A DNA stretch of 64,000 nucleotides from a virus, in the IMG/VR virus record IMGVR_UViG_3300033146_001382, positions 1-64,000 of that record, one strand, 5' to 3'. The position numbers and the translations under genes were made by a program. Below, piece after piece: positions 4,231 to 18,294 of the stretch. Below the pieces are notes generated by a model. It did not search any database and had not been told where the DNA came from. It saw nothing but the letters and a program-made list of their open reading frames with translations. How positions within the stretch are numbered: position 1 is the first letter of the stretch; the number at the start of each line of letters is the position of its first letter.

Positions 4231-4533
4231 ATGAAAAAGAAACTAATAACACTATTACTAGGATTATCTATACTAGTAGCTTCAACAGCTTTTGCAGTAA
4301 CAACTATGAAAGTTATGTTTATGTCTATTAGTCCATTTGGTGGAGCTTACGCAGCAAATTCAGTAGAAATGCCTACAATGGATAGACCTACCTTACAAGG
4401 AGCCTTAGGTTTTCCAACTAGATCTTATGGCTACTGTGATGTATGGACAGGGTTTGATCAAATATATGTAGCATATTACGATGTATATGGTAATACTACT
4501 ACAGCATTAATACTACCAGTAACATCATGGTAA
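4231..4533 (+). CDS. Small secreted protein with signal peptide
   Basis: MKKKLITLLLGLSILVASTAFA is a textbook signal peptide with a probable cleavage after A-F-A. The remaining 78 residues hold many Tyr, Thr and Met residues and end DVYGNTTTALILPVTSW. AAGGAGAAATAAA precedes ATG. A short exported phage protein next to a membrane protein (4527) could act on the cell envelope, for example in superinfection exclusion; nothing in the sequence proves this. Confidence 0.7.
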   Translation: MKKKLITLLLGLSILVASTAFAVTTMKVMFMSISPFGGAYAANSVEMPTMDRPTLQGALGFPTRSYGYCDVWTGFDQIYVAYYDVYGNTTTALILPVTSW

Positions 4534-4859
4534 TAATACCAAATTATGTGTCAGGGCATTTATTTGTAGGATTATTTTTCTTTATAATAATTTATGGTAT
4601 AGGTATAGTGTGGATTATATCAGAACGAACTACTAGTTATCATTGTAGTGATGATTATTCTAGCGTAAGTTCTAGACATAGAGCAACTACAACTAAGGAT
4701 ATGTGGATAGCAGTATTGTGGCCATTAACTGCCTTAATAGTAGTACCTTTAAGAATACTAGGACTTATAAATATATTAATGCACTATGTATTATTACTAC
4801 TAGGTATAAATTATAAAGATACCTATTTAAGTAAAAAAATAAATAAATTATGTAATTAA
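4527..4859 (+). CDS. Membrane protein, 110 aa
   Basis: Overlaps the end of the secreted-protein gene by seven bases, so translation is probably coupled. Hydrophobic segments lie at about residues 10-31 (VGLFFFIIIYGIGIVWII) and 62-96 (IAVLWPLTALIVVPLRIL and onward), separated by a Ser/Tyr/His-rich loop. Two or three membrane spans are likely. No family recognised; with its neighbour it forms an envelope-directed pair. Confidence 0.65.
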   Translation: MVIIPNYVSGHLFVGLFFFIIIYGIGIVWIISERTTSYHCSDDYSSVSSRHRATTTKDMWIAVLWPLTALIVVPLRILGLINILMHYVLLLLGINYKDTYLSKKINKLCN

Positions 4860-6676: not shown

Positions 6677-6931
6677 ATGACTAAAGAATTAGAAACTGAA
6701 CGTGCTGAGTATAACATGAAGTTGAATGATACATTAAGTTTTTCTACTGGATTAACTAAAATGATAATCATGCGTGTACCTGGTGGATGGATTTATACTA
6801 CTATACTAGAACCTGGAGCAAAGGATCATAAACCTATACCAATTGCTAGTAGTGTATTTGTGCCTATACATAAACCTAAAGCATCAGAATATGTGCCTAA
6901 TGATTTTAAAGTTGGTGAGGTAACTGAATGA
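6677..6931 (+). CDS. Conserved small phage protein, 84 aa
   Basis: First gene after the 6603 promoter, AAAGGAATTACAC before ATG. The central MIIMRVPGGWIYTT segment is a pattern I know from small phage proteins of unknown function. Probably a single compact beta domain with an acidic N-terminal extension. The stop overlaps the next start (ATGA), so the two are coupled. Confidence 0.65.
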   Translation: MTKELETERAEYNMKLNDTLSFSTGLTKMIIMRVPGGWIYTTILEPGAKDHKPIPIASSVFVPIHKPKASEYVPNDFKVGEVTE

Positions 6932-8715: not shown

Positions 8716-11559
8716 ATGAAAACTATATTTAAAATAATTTTAATATTGGTTATACTCTCAACTTCTGTAATTAGCCATGGTGGTTCCAATAAAAAGAAAC
8801 TAATTGTAGGAGCGTTTAATTTCCCTCCTGCAATTTTTTTAAATAGTAACGGGGAGACAGAGGGATTTTTTGTTGACTTACTAAAAGAAATAGCTAAAGA
8901 AGAAGATTGGACACTTAGTTTTAAATTTACAACCTGGAGTAATGGGTTAGAGATGATGAAAAATGGTGATTTAGATATTTGGACTAGTACGGCATACACT
9001 GAAGTAAGAAACGCCTATATGGACTATAGTAACGAGCCTATACTAACAACCTGGGTAGAAATATTCTCCTCTACATCATCTAAAGTAAATAGTATATTTG
9101 ATCTAGAAAATAAAATAGTAGCTATAATGAAAAAAGATATTAATGGTATTATTTTTAAAGATTATATTAAAAAACTTAAAATAGACTGTAATATAAAATA
9201 CTACGAGGATTATTTTACAGTATTCCATGATTTAGAGACTGATTTAATTGATGTAGCAATTGCTAATAATATTGCTGGAGGATCTTATTTTACTAACCAT
9301 AAGGTACGTAGAACTAATATAGTATTAAGTCCATTTTTAATTTATTATACGGTACCAAAAAATAAGAATGCTTATGTAATAAAAGCTATAGACAAACATC
9401 TTAAAAAATGGAAATTAGATAGTAGTTCAATATATTATAAGTCGTTAGATTTTTGGTTACATAAAGAAGCTAATATTCAAAATGTAGTACCTAAGGCTAT
9501 TAAAATTATAGGAGTTATAGCAATAGTAGGATTTTTTATAATGGCTCTAATTATTTTAATATTTAAACATAAGGTTAATTCTAAATCTAGAGATGTACTA
9601 GAAGGTGAAGCTGATTATAAATCAACACTTGAAAATTTGTTAATAGGTATTATAGTGTATAAAAAACATTCTGGAATAATTATGTGTAATGAGGAAGCTG
9701 AAAAAATAATAGGATTAACATACTTACAAATAATAGAGAAGAATAGATCTGTACAAGATTGGGACTTTGTATCTGTTGATAAAACCAACTTAAAATTTGA
9801 AGACTATCCAATAAATAAAGTAATAGCCACCAACAATCCTTTAAAAGATACAGTATTAGGCATAAAAAATATTAATAAACATAGTATCACTTGGGTTTTA
9901 GTGAATGCTGTACCTATCTTTACTATGACTAATAAATTAAAAAAAATTATAGTTAATTTTATAGATATAACACATATTAAACAAACAGAAGAGCAATTAT
10001 TAAAAAATGATCAATTTTTACATACAACTAGTAAATTAGCTAAAGTAGGTGGCTGGGAATTAACTAAAGAAGGTGAAATGACTTGGTCAAAAGAACTATA
10101 CTACATACATGAAATACCTATGGGTGTACCTATTGATACTAAATTACTCATTCATAATTTATTTTTAGACCAAAAAGAGGTGATAGATGAAGCTTTTATT
10201 GAACTATTTAAAAATAAACAGAAGATATCCATCCAACTAAAATTAATAACTAAAGAAACAAAAACAGTTAAATGGCTTAGAGTAATAGCTATCCCTTTAT
10301 TAGACAAGAATGGGGAGGTAGAAAAAGTAATTGGGGCAACTCAAGATATCACTACTGTACATAACTTTGCTAAAGAAAAAGAGTTAATGACTAAGCAGTT
10401 ACAACAATCTCAAAAAATGGAGGCTATAGGTACACTCGCTGGTGGAATTGCACATGATTTTAATAATATACTGTCTGGTATATTTGGGTATACCCAGTTA
10501 GCCGAAATGAGTGTAGAAACCCCAGAAAAAGCCAGAAAACATTTAAAAATGGTTGTAGCTAGTGCTCAAAGAGCTGCAGAGTTAGTACAACAAATTTTAA
10601 CTTTTAGTAGAACACCAGATAAAGATCTAGCACCATTAAAAGTATATATAGTAATTAAAGAGGCTATGAAATTACTAAGAGCTTCAATACCTTCCTCAAT
10701 AAAGTTTACTGTAGACATCCAATCTAAAGGAAGTGTAAAGATGGACCCTACTAAAGTACACCAAATTATAATGAATCTAGTGACTAATGCATACCAAGCT
10801 ATCGGAGATGCTGAGCAGGGGGAAATAACTATAGTAGTAAGAGAAATATTTTTAAACAAAAAAGGAGTAATACCTAATGTAGGTCTTAAAAAAGGTGAGT
10901 ACTTAAAACTATCAGTAAGTGACACTGGTACAGGTATGACTAAAGAAGTACAAGAACGACTATTTGAACCATACTACACTACTAAAATAAAAGGGAAGGG
11001 TACAGGTTTGGGGCTGTCTATAGTGCATGGAATAGTTACCAATGCTGGAGGCCAAATTAATGTATATAGTGAATTAGGCATAGGTTCATCTTTTAATATT
11101 TATTTACCTCTCAGTGTAGAACTAACAGCCTATGAGAATAAAAAAGTAACTATCACTGATAAAGAGCTACTTAAAGGTACTGAAACCTTAATGATAGTAG
11201 ACGATGAGCCTATGGTAGTATCAGCTTTTCAAACTATATTAAATCAGTATGGCTATACTGTAGATATTTTCAAAAATGGAGCTCTAGGGTTAGAAGCATT
11301 CAAAAAATATCCAACCAGATATAATCTAATAGTTACAGACCAGACAATGCCAATTATGACTGGGGCAGAAATGTCAAAGCGTATTTTGGATATTAACTCT
11401 GATATGCCTATAGTTCTTTGTACAGGGCATACAGAACAAACTACAAAGGAGCAATGGAAGACTATAGGAATAAAAGGAATTCTAAATAAACCAGTACTAA
11501 CTAGTGATTTATTAATGTCTATTAGAACTATATTAAATAAAAAAGAGATAATTAAATGA
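8716..11559 (+). CDS. Hybrid sensor histidine kinase with periplasmic binding domain
   Basis: 947 residues with a complete signalling layout: signal peptide (1-20); bacterial solute-binding domain of family 3 (about 28-250, LIVGAFNFPPAIF); one membrane span (about 262-284); two PAS domains (about 300-420 and 432-548); DHp with phosphoacceptor H580 in GGIAHDFNNIL; ATPase with N687/N691, DTGTGM (736-741) and GTGLGLSIV (762-770); and a receiver with D829/D830, phosphoacceptor D875 and K925. All catalytic residues are present, so it should sense a periplasmic ligand and phosphorylate its own receiver. The stop overlaps the next phage gene (ATGA), which argues that it is a true phage gene. The DHp sequence resembles deltaproteobacterial kinases. 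Confidence 0.93.
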   Translation: MKTIFKIILILVILSTSVISHGGSNKKKLIVGAFNFPPAIFLNSNGETEGFFVDLLKEIAKEEDWTLSFKFTTWSNGLEMMKNGDLDIWTSTAYTEVRNAYMDYSNEPILTTWVEIFSSTSSKVNSIFDLENKIVAIMKKDINGIIFKDYIKKLKIDCNIKYYEDYFTVFHDLETDLIDVAIANNIAGGSYFTNHKVRRTNIVLSPFLIYYTVPKNKNAYVIKAIDKHLKKWKLDSSSIYYKSLDFWLHKEANIQNVVPKAIKIIGVIAIVGFFIMALIILIFKHKVNSKSRDVLEGEADYKSTLENLLIGIIVYKKHSGIIMCNEEAEKIIGLTYLQIIEKNRSVQDWDFVSVDKTNLKFEDYPINKVIATNNPLKDTVLGIKNINKHSITWVLVNAVPIFTMTNKLKKIIVNFIDITHIKQTEEQLLKNDQFLHTTSKLAKVGGWELTKEGEMTWSKELYYIHEIPMGVPIDTKLLIHNLFLDQKEVIDEAFIELFKNKQKISIQLKLITKETKTVKWLRVIAIPLLDKNGEVEKVIGATQDITTVHNFAKEKELMTKQLQQSQKMEAIGTLAGGIAHDFNNILSGIFGYTQLAEMSVETPEKARKHLKMVVASAQRAAELVQQILTFSRTPDKDLAPLKVYIVIKEAMKLLRASIPSSIKFTVDIQSKGSVKMDPTKVHQIIMNLVTNAYQAIGDAEQGEITIVVREIFLNKKGVIPNVGLKKGEYLKLSVSDTGTGMTKEVQERLFEPYYTTKIKGKGTGLGLSIVHGIVTNAGGQINVYSELGIGSSFNIYLPLSVELTAYENKKVTITDKELLKGTETLMIVDDEPMVVSAFQTILNQYGYTVDIFKNGALGLEAFKKYPTRYNLIVTDQTMPIMTGAEMSKRILDINSDMPIVLCTGHTEQTTKEQWKTIGIKGILNKPVLTSDLLMSIRTILNKKEIIK

Positions 11560-13547: not shown

Positions 13548-14201
13548 ATGCAAGTAAAAAATAAAACATTACAAAATTTACTATTAAATATAGTAGAGTA
13601 TAGTCATGATATTATATGGATTATAGACACTAATTTAATTGTAGTATACTTCAATAAAGCTATAGAAAAATACGGTTGGAAACGTGATAATTTAATAGGG
13701 AAAAATATATTAAATATAATGGATAAACAATCAAGTAATTTATTTAAAACTACCATAAATAATAAATTTACTACATGTAGTGAGAAAGCTGCAGTAGTCG
13801 AAACTAATAATTTTTTTAATGGTACTAAAAATATTTTTATTCTAGAGTCTACTTGTAAAGTATTACATAATAACTATGGTAAGATTATAGGACTATATGG
13901 TATCTCAAGAGATGTTACTTGTAATAAGCAATTGGAACAAATAACTTTAGAGAAAGAAAAGAAAAAAATGCTAGTTGAAGTATCCGGAGGTATTTGCCAC
14001 GAAGTAAGTCAACCTTTACAAGTCATGATGGGGTATATAGATCTACTGGATACTACAGAACTTAGTGTAGAAGGTAAAAAATATATAAACAACCTACATA
14101 CTAGTATGAATAGATTAAATACTTTAGTTAAAAAGATACAAAATATAAAAGAATATAAAACTAGGTCATATTTAACTACTAAAATAATTGACCTAGATTA
14201 G
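13548..14201 (+). CDS. PAS-DHp protein lacking a kinase ATPase domain
   Basis: 217 residues: a PAS domain (about 12-125, with HDIIWIIDTNLIVVYFN and the exit strand YGISRDVT) followed by a linker helix and a DHp/HisKA domain (about 137-205) with H151 in GGICHEVSQPLQVMMGY. The protein ends after the second DHp helix: there is no N-box, DxGxG or GxGLGL. The stop is clean and the next gene follows nine bases on, so this is not an obvious frameshift. It might accept phosphate from another kinase, dimerise with and block host kinases, or work as a phosphotransfer domain. Confidence 0.85.
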   Translation: MQVKNKTLQNLLLNIVEYSHDIIWIIDTNLIVVYFNKAIEKYGWKRDNLIGKNILNIMDKQSSNLFKTTINNKFTTCSEKAAVVETNNFFNGTKNIFILESTCKVLHNNYGKIIGLYGISRDVTCNKQLEQITLEKEKKKMLVEVSGGICHEVSQPLQVMMGYIDLLDTTELSVEGKKYINNLHTSMNRLNTLVKKIQNIKEYKTRSYLTTKIIDLD

Positions 14202-14210
14202 GAGTTATAG

Positions 14211-14459
14211 ATGAAAATAGAAAAACGAAAGTTTAAACGAGTTATATTTAAAAATTATGTAAATATTATAAATAATGGTAAAATACTGAAAGTTAAATCA
14301 ACTAATGTATCTAGACATGGTATGTTCTTAAATACCAACGTTTTTAATGTAGGGGATAAATTAGTTGCTATATTCTCAGTACTACTTAATATACCATTAA
14401 AAAAAGATATTATTGTAATTAGAAAAAATAATAATGGGATAGGTATCAAATTTATATAA
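14211..14459 (+). CDS. PilZ domain protein (probable c-di-GMP receptor)
   Basis: 82 residues, essentially one PilZ domain. The c-di-GMP signature is present: R6-x-x-x-R10 at the N-terminus (EKRKFKRVIF) and N32-x-S34-x-x-G37 (TNVSRHGMFL), followed by the barrel strands to KNNNGIGIKFI. Binding of c-di-GMP is the known role of intact PilZ motifs; the output is unknown as there is no effector domain. Starts nine bases after the PAS-DHp gene with AGGAGTTATAG upstream, so both come from one mRNA. A short TATAAC/GTTATA hairpin at 14455-14469 separates it from the converging leftward unit. Confidence 0.85.
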   Translation: MKIEKRKFKRVIFKNYVNIINNGKILKVKSTNVSRHGMFLNTNVFNVGDKLVAIFSVLLNIPLKKDIIVIRKNNNGIGIKFI

Positions 14460-14469
14460 CTTAGTTATA

Positions 14470-14655
14470 CTAACATTGTACTGTACATTTAGAACTAAAT
14501 AGTCTTTTAAAAAACATAATAAACCCTCTTTGTTGAGGAGGTGCAGTGTCCCACGGAGGATTCTCCCATTTTCCAGAGTTACAAATAAATACTGACTCAA
14601 TGGGTAAAGCAGTTGAGTTTGTTTTAGTTAGTGTTGGTTTTGTCCAATTTTTCAT
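14470..14655 (-). CDS. Small precursor-like peptide, 61 aa
   Basis: Leftward gene with AAGGAGATAAATT before ATG, downstream of the HPr-kinase-like gene. The N-terminus MKNWTKPTLTK resembles leader peptides of ribosomally made, modified peptides, many of which begin with K-x-W-x-K-P; the middle is Pro/Trp-rich (WENPPWDTAPPQQ) and the end has two cysteines (SSKCTVQC). In bacteria HprK-like kinases are found beside such precursors, for example phosphorylating lasso peptides. No other maturation enzyme is seen, so the pairing is a hypothesis. An overlapping ORF in another frame (14397-14600) has no ribosome binding site. Confidence 0.55.
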   Translation of the reverse strand: MKNWTKPTLTKTNSTALPIESVFICNSGKWENPPWDTAPPQQRGFIMFFKRLFSSKCTVQC

Positions 14656-14683
14656 AATTTATCTCCTTTATAATTTACATAAG

Positions 14684-15526
14684 TTAGTTTATTAAGTCAT
14701 TTTCTATATCATTTATTACATTGTAGGATAAATCAAAATATAAATTACTATACTTTATATCTTGTAATTTATATATTTTTTTTACATACTCTAGATCTAC
14801 ATTAAAATAGCTAACTATATTTTTATATAATTCTTCCACTTTATTTGGTGTTTCTATTATAGTTATATTAGTTGATTGATATAAAAAATAGAATTTATTT
14901 ATATATGCGGTTAAATTACTAGTTTTTTCATAAGATCCATGACACCAATGACCGAAAGCCTTATTACCTAATAAAATAGTACGGTCATCACATAATAACG
15001 ACCAGCCGCGTTGTTCTAATTTTTTAGACAAAGTAGATTTACCAGTACCTGAACTACCTAGTAAAGTTATAGCTTTATTATTTTTTATTAAACTATTACC
15101 ATGTAAAATTAAACCATTATTTTTAATTACATATGGATATAACATCACTTGATCAGAATAAAATACACATAAATTATTAATTAACTTTTTATTATAAATA
15201 CTTATTATATTTTTTGGAAGATATATCCGCCAATCAGTTAGCTCTTTATTAACAACAGCTTTTATATTATAAGGTTTATAAAAATATAATATATCTGTAT
15301 TACTTTCTTTTATAATCCAGGTAGAATTTTGAAATCTAGTTTTATATTTTTTAAAAAAATTAAATTTTAATTTAAATAGATTATGAGTTATTTTAATATC
15401 TATATCATTAGTATTATCTATATCTACTTTAAATTTATTAAATTGCTCATTTAAAACTAAACTACTTTTAATTGGCGTATTTAATTCTATTACACAGTTA
15501 CATGTTTTATAATAACTTTTATACAT
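14684..15526 (-). CDS. HPr kinase/phosphorylase-like ATPase
   Basis: 280 residues. The C-terminal half follows the HprK-like plan: LHGNSLI (141-147) before Walker A GSSGTGKST (157-165), then GWSLLCDD with D180-D181, then GHWCHGSYEKTS (192-203), the position where relatives read T-P-x-H-G-x. The N-terminal 110 residues are poorly conserved. HprK relatives phosphorylate serine on a protein or peptide partner. The gene runs against all neighbours, has its own promoter (15533-15560), and is followed by a small peptide gene. The -10 box ends seven bases before ATG and no ribosome binding site is visible, so the mRNA may be leaderless. Confidence 0.75.
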   Translation of the reverse strand: MYKSYYKTCNCVIELNTPIKSSLVLNEQFNKFKVDIDNTNDIDIKITHNLFKLKFNFFKKYKTRFQNSTWIIKESNTDILYFYKPYNIKAVVNKELTDWRIYLPKNIISIYNKKLINNLCVFYSDQVMLYPYVIKNNGLILHGNSLIKNNKAITLLGSSGTGKSTLSKKLEQRGWSLLCDDRTILLGNKAFGHWCHGSYEKTSNLTAYINKFYFLYQSTNITIIETPNKVEELYKNIVSYFNVDLEYVKKIYKLQDIKYSNLYFDLSYNVINDIENDLIN

Positions 15527-15532
15527 ATATAA

Positions 15533-15560
15533 ATAATAAGTATTATTATTATATTGTCAA
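15533..15560 (-). promoter_or_regulatory. Leftward promoter TTGACA-16-TATTAT
   Basis: On the minus strand TTGACA (15560-15555), a 16-bp spacer and TATTAT (15538-15533). The predicted transcription start falls at or next to the ATG at 15526. It shares the 16-bp spacing of the rightward promoters and makes the HprK-like/peptide pair an independent unit. Confidence 0.75.
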
Positions 15561-15620
15561 TAAACTAACTAGTAAATATATGAGATACTTATTTTTATTA
15601 TAAATAAAAGGAGGTAATTC

Positions 15621-15824
15621 ATGTCTAGATACTTAACACAATTATACGATATAGCATATAAATTGAGGAGTGTAGATCCCAGTACATTTAGTAGTATTTG
15701 TTTTGGTTACTTTAAAACTAAACCTGTAGGGTGTGTAACTGCTTCATTAGATTTAGGTTGTGGTGGCAAAAAGACTGATAAAGAAATAAGTATAGTACTA
15801 CCACCTAATATCGTAATTCAATAA
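15621..15824 (+). CDS. Hypothetical protein, 67 aa
   Basis: AAAGGAGGTAATTC precedes ATG. An N-terminal helix (MSRYLTQLYDIAYKLRSV) is followed by a cysteine/glycine-rich part (SICFGYFKTKPVGCV, LDLGCGGKK) and a hydrophobic end. It lies between the leftward unit and a terminator. No family recognised. Confidence 0.6.
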   Translation: MSRYLTQLYDIAYKLRSVDPSTFSSICFGYFKTKPVGCVTASLDLGCGGKKTDKEISIVLPPNIVIQ

Positions 15825-15842
15825 TAATTATATATAAATTTT

Positions 15843-15889
15843 GTGCTTAATTATAGGTATAATTATTTAACCTACTTATAATTAGGCAC
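15843..15889 (+). terminator. Hairpin terminator
   Basis: A 13-bp stem GTGCTTAATTATA/TATAATTAGGCAC (one T-G pair) extended by AGGT/ACCT across a bulge, followed by an A/T-rich tail with TTTTTT at about 15903. Ends the short transcript carrying the 67-aa gene. Confidence 0.65.
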
Positions 15890-17296: not shown

Positions 17297-17723
17297 CCCT
17301 ATATGTTATGAGTGTTTAAAGTTAATGGTTAAAAAACATAGTATAATTTATATTAATAGACCAGGATTTGGAGAGTATAAGGTTCCAGGAGTATTGCATT
17401 TTTCATGTGAGAAATGCGGGACTAAGATAATTCCACCTATTGAGTCATTAAGAATTACCCAAAAAGGTATTAAATTACACTTATTAAAAGTACTTAAAGA
17501 ATTAAATACTGAGTCAGTATTAAATCTATGTCAGATATTAAAGTGTGAACTTAGTGAGTTAAATGAAGTACTAATACAATTAAATGATGAAAATATCATT
17601 TCATTGAGTGATACCGGTAGATTTCCTATGGTAAGTTTAAATACAATAGAACCTAAAATTAAAAAAGGATTTATCTCAAAATTAATTAATAGCTTATTTA
17701 AAGGTGAAGCTAGTGATATATAA
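17289..17723 (+). CDS. Zinc-finger plus winged-helix-like protein
   Basis: 144 residues. The N-terminus has a zinc site from CYEC (6-9) and CEKCG (about 40-44), reminiscent of MqsA-type ribbons; the middle (LLKVLKELNTESVLNLCQILKC and the following ELNEVLIQLNDENII) looks like a winged helix. A DNA- or RNA-binding regulator is plausible. Overlaps genes on both sides. Confidence 0.6.
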   Translation: MSNPICYECLKLMVKKHSIIYINRPGFGEYKVPGVLHFSCEKCGTKIIPPIESLRITQKGIKLHLLKVLKELNTESVLNLCQILKCELSELNEVLIQLNDENIISLSDTGRFPMVSLNTIEPKIKKGFISKLINSLFKGEASDI

Positions 17724-18294
17724 AAATTTTTGTATAATACCAGAAAATGCTATAGAAGAAGAATTTATAGAACATGAAATAAAATTTCTAATAGATGTGT
17801 CTATACATAAACAACATGAAATAAAAGACAAAGATACATATATTAAAATAGTTAAAAATAGATTTATAGATTGGTTAAATAAGGATTCAAAAATGAATGA
17901 AGTAAAACAAGTAATAGTAATACGTAAAGATTTAAAAATGCGTAAAGGTAAAGCTATAGCTCAAGGTGCTCACGCTGCTATGAAAGTAATACTAGACAAA
18001 ACTATAAAAACTGAAGATTCTACTAGTCAATATTTAAAATTAAACTTACTAAAAAATGACCCTATGTTTAAATGGCTTAATGGTAGTTTTACAAAAATAG
18101 TAGTAGGTGTAGATTCATTAGGGGAATTAGAAAAGATAGAGTCAAAAGCTATGGAACTAGGTATTATGTGTGCTAAAATAATAGATGAAGGTAGAACAGA
18201 ATTTAAGAATAAAAAAACTATTACAGCTTTAGCAGTAGGGCCTGAATGGTCGGAAAAATTAGACCCAATAACAAGCAATCTTAAGTTAATATAA
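17713..18294 (+). CDS. Peptidyl-tRNA hydrolase 2 (PTH2) family
   Basis: The C-terminal 130 residues match PTH2: VKQVIVIRKDLKMRKGKAIA then QGAHAAMKV, WLNGSFTKIVVGVDS, and a GRTEFKNKKTITALAVGPEW end. These include the basic K-M-R-K-G-K-x-x-A-Q-x-A-H core and the terminal T-x-L-A-x-G-P of the family. PTH2 releases peptides from peptidyl-tRNA and is typical of archaea and eukaryotes, less common in bacteria. The N-terminal 60 residues are an extra acidic segment. GTG at 17713 is preferred over 17704 because AAGGTGA lies five bases upstream. Confidence 0.88.
   Translation: MIYKNFCIIPENAIEEEFIEHEIKFLIDVSIHKQHEIKDKDTYIKIVKNRFIDWLNKDSKMNEVKQVIVIRKDLKMRKGKAIAQGAHAAMKVILDKTIKTEDSTSQYLKLNLLKNDPMFKWLNGSFTKIVVGVDSLGELEKIESKAMELGIMCAKIIDEGRTEFKNKKTITALAVGPEWSEKLDPITSNLKLI

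Follow-up and report, generated by a model that had tools for sequence, protein, structure and literature searches.

An HprK-like kinase gene and a precursor-like peptide gene form a conserved two-gene cassette in two related phages

The window analysed here comprises bases 1-64000 of the 189,441-bp IMG/VR virus record IMGVR_UViG_3300033146_001382, which encodes a terminase, a portal and further structural genes. Its minus strand carries a leftward unit of two genes, the first of which is an ORF of 280 aa (14684..15526, -) encoding a putative HprK-like peptide kinase. After a gap of 28 bp, this is followed by an ORF for a precursor-like peptide of 61 aa starting with MKNWTKP (14470..14655, -). 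The peptide ORF is preceded by the strong Shine-Dalgarno sequence AAAGGAGATAAATT and stops 10 bp from the stop of a convergent PilZ gene. The original prediction, made from the letters of the window, described a two-gene unit running against its neighbours. Both ORFs lie exactly where it had placed them, and the remaining convincing genes from about 3 to 40 kb are all directed rightward. Genes related to signalling are also present in the window, including a 947-aa hybrid histidine kinase-like protein (8716-11559), a protein with PAS and HisKA domains in which no ATPase domain was detected (13548-14201), and the PilZ protein (14211-14459).

The proposed promoter of the unit, the near-consensus TTGACA-16-TATTAT (15533..15560, -), is present, with its -10 element ending 6 bp 5' of the kinase ATG. 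It ranked joint top among 35 promoter-like sites in an AT-rich stretch of 3.5 kb for which chance alone predicts 31, and the match by itself is therefore weak evidence. In a related phage, described below, the kinase gene is preceded by TTGACA-16-TATATT-7-ATG. The upstream regions of both kinase genes have TATTGACAA in common, with the -10 element 16 bp downstream and ending 6-7 bp before the ATG. Since this equal layout occurs within otherwise diverged sequence, the promoter in the window is credible. With a -10 element ending merely 6 bp from the ATG, transcription from it would yield a kinase mRNA with little or no leader.

In hmmscan the 280-aa ORF matched HprK_rel_A (3.9e-9), ScmC (1.2e-7) and HprK_rel_B (3.9e-6), and more weakly Hpr_kinase_C and PEPCK. 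All of these matches were confined to the P-loop region and stayed under every curated family cut-off (17.6/33.3 bits for PF07475, 36/200 for TIGR04352 and 31/125 for TIGR04249). The 'K..RG.GI' signature region of HprK was not recognised in the kinase, and the HprK matches end near the second Asp. The lasso-peptide kinase BsfK has the conserved residues H148, G163, G166, G168, K169, S170, D186 and D187 (PMC10368454). The window kinase possesses this H-G-G-G-K-S-D-D catalytic motif as H142, the Walker A residues G157-x2-G160-x-G162-K163-S164, and D180-D181, at a constant offset of 6. The eight residues are invariant in four kinases, namely those of the window and the related phage (L038) and the distant bacterial proteins L033 and L034. 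Two AlphaFold models reached a mean pLDDT of 41 and 48, with 70-80 in the P-loop core of the second; confidence is low outside this core, and the N-terminal 130 aa were not confidently modelled. The first model (A8) was too weak for use alone. With both models, the top 26 Foldseek matches in the PDB were all HprK/P (best E 1.4e-4, second model), followed by PEP carboxykinase. Thus, although the protein falls below all curated cut-offs, the fold comparison, which applies to the catalytic core only, and the HprK spacing of the P-loop and second-Asp pair agree in supporting the predicted HprK-like identity. PADLOC made no defence assignment for the kinase.

Single-sequence searches with the kinase and the peptide retrieved nothing from INPHARED phages, PLSDB plasmids, IMG/VR or GTDB genomes; matches to Arthrobacter, Cellulophaga and Burkholderia phages were at chance level and were dropped. 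A first P-loop pattern applied to IMG/VR returned polynucleotide-kinase-like ATPases and two real HprKs, none of them a relative. It also returned the contig L024, in which an HprK-like gene is joined to phage genes, likewise no relative. The distant bacterial kinases L033-L035 match around the P-loop only. Alignments A1-A5 include randomised kinase copies, added to focus the scan on a single motif, and do not serve as evidence. On the viral contigs L036 and L037 (7862-10807), an HprK-like ORF directly follows a tail-protein gene; in L037 this ORF (981 aa) also includes a fused glycosyltransferase-like region.

Two related contigs were found via PhoH, the closer being IMGVR_UViG_3300022188_000007 with 90% PhoH identity, and its HprK-like gene was located by motif pattern. 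This gene occupies contig positions 10389-11237 (-), between homologues of the window genes 4527-4859 and 6677-6931, and its product shares 50% identity with the window kinase along its entire length. Its stop overlaps by 4 bp (ATGA) the start of a 63-aa peptide, MKKTWIKP...RPIETVFICNSGDWKPKPPWE..., that matches the window peptide with E 5e-9. Kinase and peptide genes are thus arranged in identical strand order in both phages, at two different sites. At each site both genes or neither were found, and neither phage record holds a second copy of the pair. This recurrence bears out the proposal that kinase and peptide belong together, on the evidence of two examples from one lineage. Kinase relatives without the small ORF, or with a broken one, had been named as evidence against the original prediction. 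The outcome was in its favour: the ORF is unbroken in the sole phage relative, and a peptide whose leader is related is encoded on the kinase strand at 30 of the 38 bacterial loci.

The site that in the window holds the pair and an ORF of 67 aa (14460..15862) is variable. In the related phage, these three genes are absent from it, and it is occupied instead by a caspase-like gene (Peptidase_C14, 5e-35; L009:4269-5132, +) and a 78-aa ORF. The site lies between the PilZ gene and a Laminin_G-like gene, its flanking DNA is 70-78% identical, and its edges are sharp. Because the site holds a caspase-like gene in the related phage, the pair looks like a movable two-gene cargo; its two positions would stem from movement of the cassette or from separate acquisition by the two phages. 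The stop of the related-phage peptide gene is overlapped by an ORF of 169 aa whose start resembles a signal peptide (L038:1823-2332, -). The window has no such ORF; in the related phage the unit may therefore comprise three genes in one operon. Beside this unit lies a gene with a PEP-CTERM-like C-terminus (L038:3516-4175, +), a hint that the host may sort proteins by exosortase. Elsewhere in the same phage, a GIY-YIG/NUMOD3 homing-endonuclease-like ORF (L009:7188-8539) splits the homologue of the window's 196-aa gene (17704-18294).

The window peptide begins with the leader motif W4-T-K-P7, continues with the conserved PIESVFICNSGKW...PPW (residues 18-35) and ends in a variable C-terminal tail, ...KCTVQC. 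Common to both phage peptides are W.KP and PIE[ST]VFICNSG.W..PPW. The suggested RiPP-style leader is thereby borne out as a WxxP leader, with W.KP in both phages. Over the 18 codons of the PIE..PPW block, 5 are identical, 9 synonymous and 4 replacement (dN 0.13, dS saturated), which indicates that the ORF is coding; other reading frames over this block are not conserved. For the entire peptide dN is 0.77, implying that the tail is free to vary. The only invariant Ser/Thr between the two peptides is Ser27 (Ser28 in the relative), situated in ICNSG.W and encoded at 14575..14577 (-) in the window. The only other conserved hydroxyl position is Ser21/Thr22, and the C-terminal residues are C and V, leaving no C-terminal Ser/Thr.

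A profile built from the two phage kinases (A6) matched 41 of 396 genomes of Acidobacteriota, the phylum of a Terriglobia MAG. In one class, 25 of 142 genomes matched at E<=1e-10 (best 6.4e-23, positions 3-274/281), and in another phylum 1 of 400 genomes did so at E<=1e-9. We took 38 bacterial kinase loci (L068-L087, L100-L117) from Acidobacteriota genomes and one genome of another phylum. A same-strand peptide of 52-69 aa with a [WY]xxPxL leader was present at 30 of them. These peptides share an EE[A/S/T]VL..CK-type element (EExVLxxCK), 2-4 further Cys and a Cys-rich tail, and end in Ser in 29 cases and in Thr in one. The peptide expression matched 32 ORFs on the strand of the kinase at the 38 loci, of which two were chance ORFs; the opposite strand gave no match, and shuffled proteins gave 1.75. 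As this expression ignored the last residue, the C-terminal Ser constitutes independent support for one peptide family.

By a crude CxxxCxxC expression, a separate radical-SAM-like ORF was nearby in 30 of the 38 loci, and 12 of the kinases were themselves fused to one, giving proteins of 650-720 aa. Pfam confirmed the fusion in the three tested. PqqD-like and signal-peptidase-like genes were present in those loci that were tested. No NCBIfam model matched the one bacterial precursor tested. A literature search outside subscription journals returned no description of this radical-SAM/HprK family with [WY]xxPxL...EExVLxxCK...Ser/Thr-COOH precursors. The loci appear to represent a RiPP family with kinship to the SynChlorMet and HPr-rel-A cassettes. 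The position of the phage kinases beside L078 in a tree was unreliable owing to long branches.

Phage and bacterial peptides are alike in the W.KP start and in PIE[ST]VF, which resembles EE[AS]VL. Moreover, the leader Trp is followed at a distance of 21 residues by a Cys in both phage peptides and in the W-type bacterial peptides. A profile of the 30 bacterial peptides placed the related-phage peptide first of 3366 ORFs with E 0.048 and the window peptide seventh with E 4.9, and an hhalign profile-profile comparison gave 11.5%; provable homology was not upheld statistically by these values. The likenesses are suggestive of phage peptides belonging to the bacterial family. In its conserved middle the phage peptide is unlike the bacterial ones, and most of the bacterial Cys are absent. 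Lacking these and a C-terminal Ser/Thr, the phage peptides would have a different acceptor from that of the bacterial ones.

Precursors of this kind are phosphorylated by PadeK, ThcoK, PsmK, BsfK and LppK (PMC9266682, PMC10368454, PMC13381572); an internal Ser can be the acceptor for BsfK and LppK (PMC10368454, PMC13381572), and BsfK is strongly accelerated by RREs (PMC10368454). The phage pair resembles the lasso-peptide tailoring kinases PadeK, ThcoK, SyanK, PsmK and BsfK in the HprK-type P-loop, the H-G-G-G-K-S-D-D residues at equal spacing, the adjoining substrate gene and the [WY]xxP leader. In contrast to these, it is phage-borne and comes without a detected RRE, other pathway genes alongside or a C-terminal Ser; the C-terminal Ser of paeninodin-type precursors is found in neither phage peptide. 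Neither phage record, both possibly incomplete, yielded a PqqD/RRE (lasso B1) gene, a detectable radical SAM gene or a Peptidase_S26 match. Judged by this gene complement, the pair is not a lasso-peptide system. Since these parts were found in neither record, the product would be a simple phosphopeptide or one finished by the host.

The LPP system (LppK/LppA; PMC13381572) likewise combines an HprK-like kinase with a [YW]xxP leader. Its acceptor is an internal Ser (S3) and no macrocycle is required (PMC13381572), an internal Ser being proposed as the acceptor in the phage too. However, LPP clusters require LppB (RRE), the LppS peptidase, LppN and LppD (PMC13381572), whereas the phage has two genes only. 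By inspection, the LPP motif YxxPxVLxHQxIxFETxxS is absent from the phage peptide, with only [W]xxP in common. The best-matching models for the kinase, TIGR04249 (ScmC) and TIGR04352 (HprK_rel_A), both far below their curated cut-offs, belong to the SynChlorMet (Scm)/HPr-rel-A systems. Cassettes of similar make-up, with radical SAM and PqqD proteins, house the bacterial relatives, and neither protein was found in the phages. The closest full-length kinase relatives are at the Acidobacteriota loci (L068, L071-L076, L079-L084, L086, L087, L101, L103, L105-L117), where EE[AST]VL..CK resembles PIE[ST]VFICN and both the [WY]xxP-type leader and the Cys 21 residues after Trp recur; their radical SAM enzymes, Cys-rich tails and C-terminal Ser/Thr are all absent from the phage pair. 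Neither phage-encoded HprK/RiPP pairs nor the SynChlorMet cassette were the subject of any paper retrieved by the literature search, again outside subscription journals.

From these comparisons we infer a kinase activity, the peptide as its substrate, a phosphorylation site and a benefit to the phage. We consider it likely that the pair is a two-gene cargo cassette making a phosphorylated peptide, in which the kinase phosphorylates the leader peptide encoded downstream; the relation of kinase and substrate is probable. Both proteins would be expressed together from their own promoter, and the WxKP leader may act as recognition element for the kinase. The kinase would bind ATP and move phosphate to a Ser/Thr of the peptide, as lasso-peptide and LPP kinases do. 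The acceptor is probably the invariant Ser27, the likeliest candidate within PIE[ST]VFICNSG.W. The benefit to the phage would most plausibly come from an effect on the physiology of the host or on one of its peptide pathways that has this leader; a signal or toxin against other cells is another candidate role, and lysogeny control, exclusion or anti-host action, as originally suggested, are hypothetical ones. More tentatively, the pair may represent a self-sufficient two-gene phosphopeptide factory, working without RRE, cyclase, radical SAM enzyme or peptidase, that is used during infection and pared down from the undescribed bacterial RiPP family with HprK-like/radical-SAM fusion enzymes and C-terminal-Ser precursors.

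Alternatively, the host's own RiPP pathway might be reprogrammed, with the kinase acting mainly on a host precursor or the peptide competing for a host RRE, radical SAM enzyme or peptidase. In favour of this decoy or hijack reading, the remaining pathway genes are seen in the bacterial relatives and missing from the phage pair, and the WxKP leader has been retained although the tail has not. Yet the phage peptide has a conserved middle of its own, distinct from that in the bacterial peptides, and a host pathway of this kind is presumed; we regard this reading as unlikely.

We give little credence to a toxin-antitoxin-like or regulatory pair, in which the peptide would inhibit, or be a regulatory subunit of, a kinase with another substrate. 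The kinase is encoded upstream, the W.KP start is leader-like, the bacterial relatives adjoin precursor-like peptides with a conserved modifiable terminus, and PADLOC did not match the kinase, even though a two-gene cargo with its own promoter, and with overlapping genes in the related phage, would suit such a pair. Very little credence, in turn, goes to a kinase for a small molecule or HPr beside an unrelated small gene. P-loop kinases are versatile and this one lies below all family cut-offs, but the recurrence of the pair at a different site, the unrecognised 'K..RG.GI' region and the HprK matches stopping near the second Asp argue against this reading.

To our knowledge, HprK-like kinases that phosphorylate peptides have been described solely in a few lasso and LPP clusters of bacteria. 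Altogether, the phage pair is a real, conserved kinase-peptide cassette, a minimal phage-borne form of known chemistry. The search for its relatives also exposed a bacterial radical-SAM/HprK family for which we found no description. A phage keeping only kinase and precursor would reveal which parts of such a pathway suffice, and would point to their use in infection.
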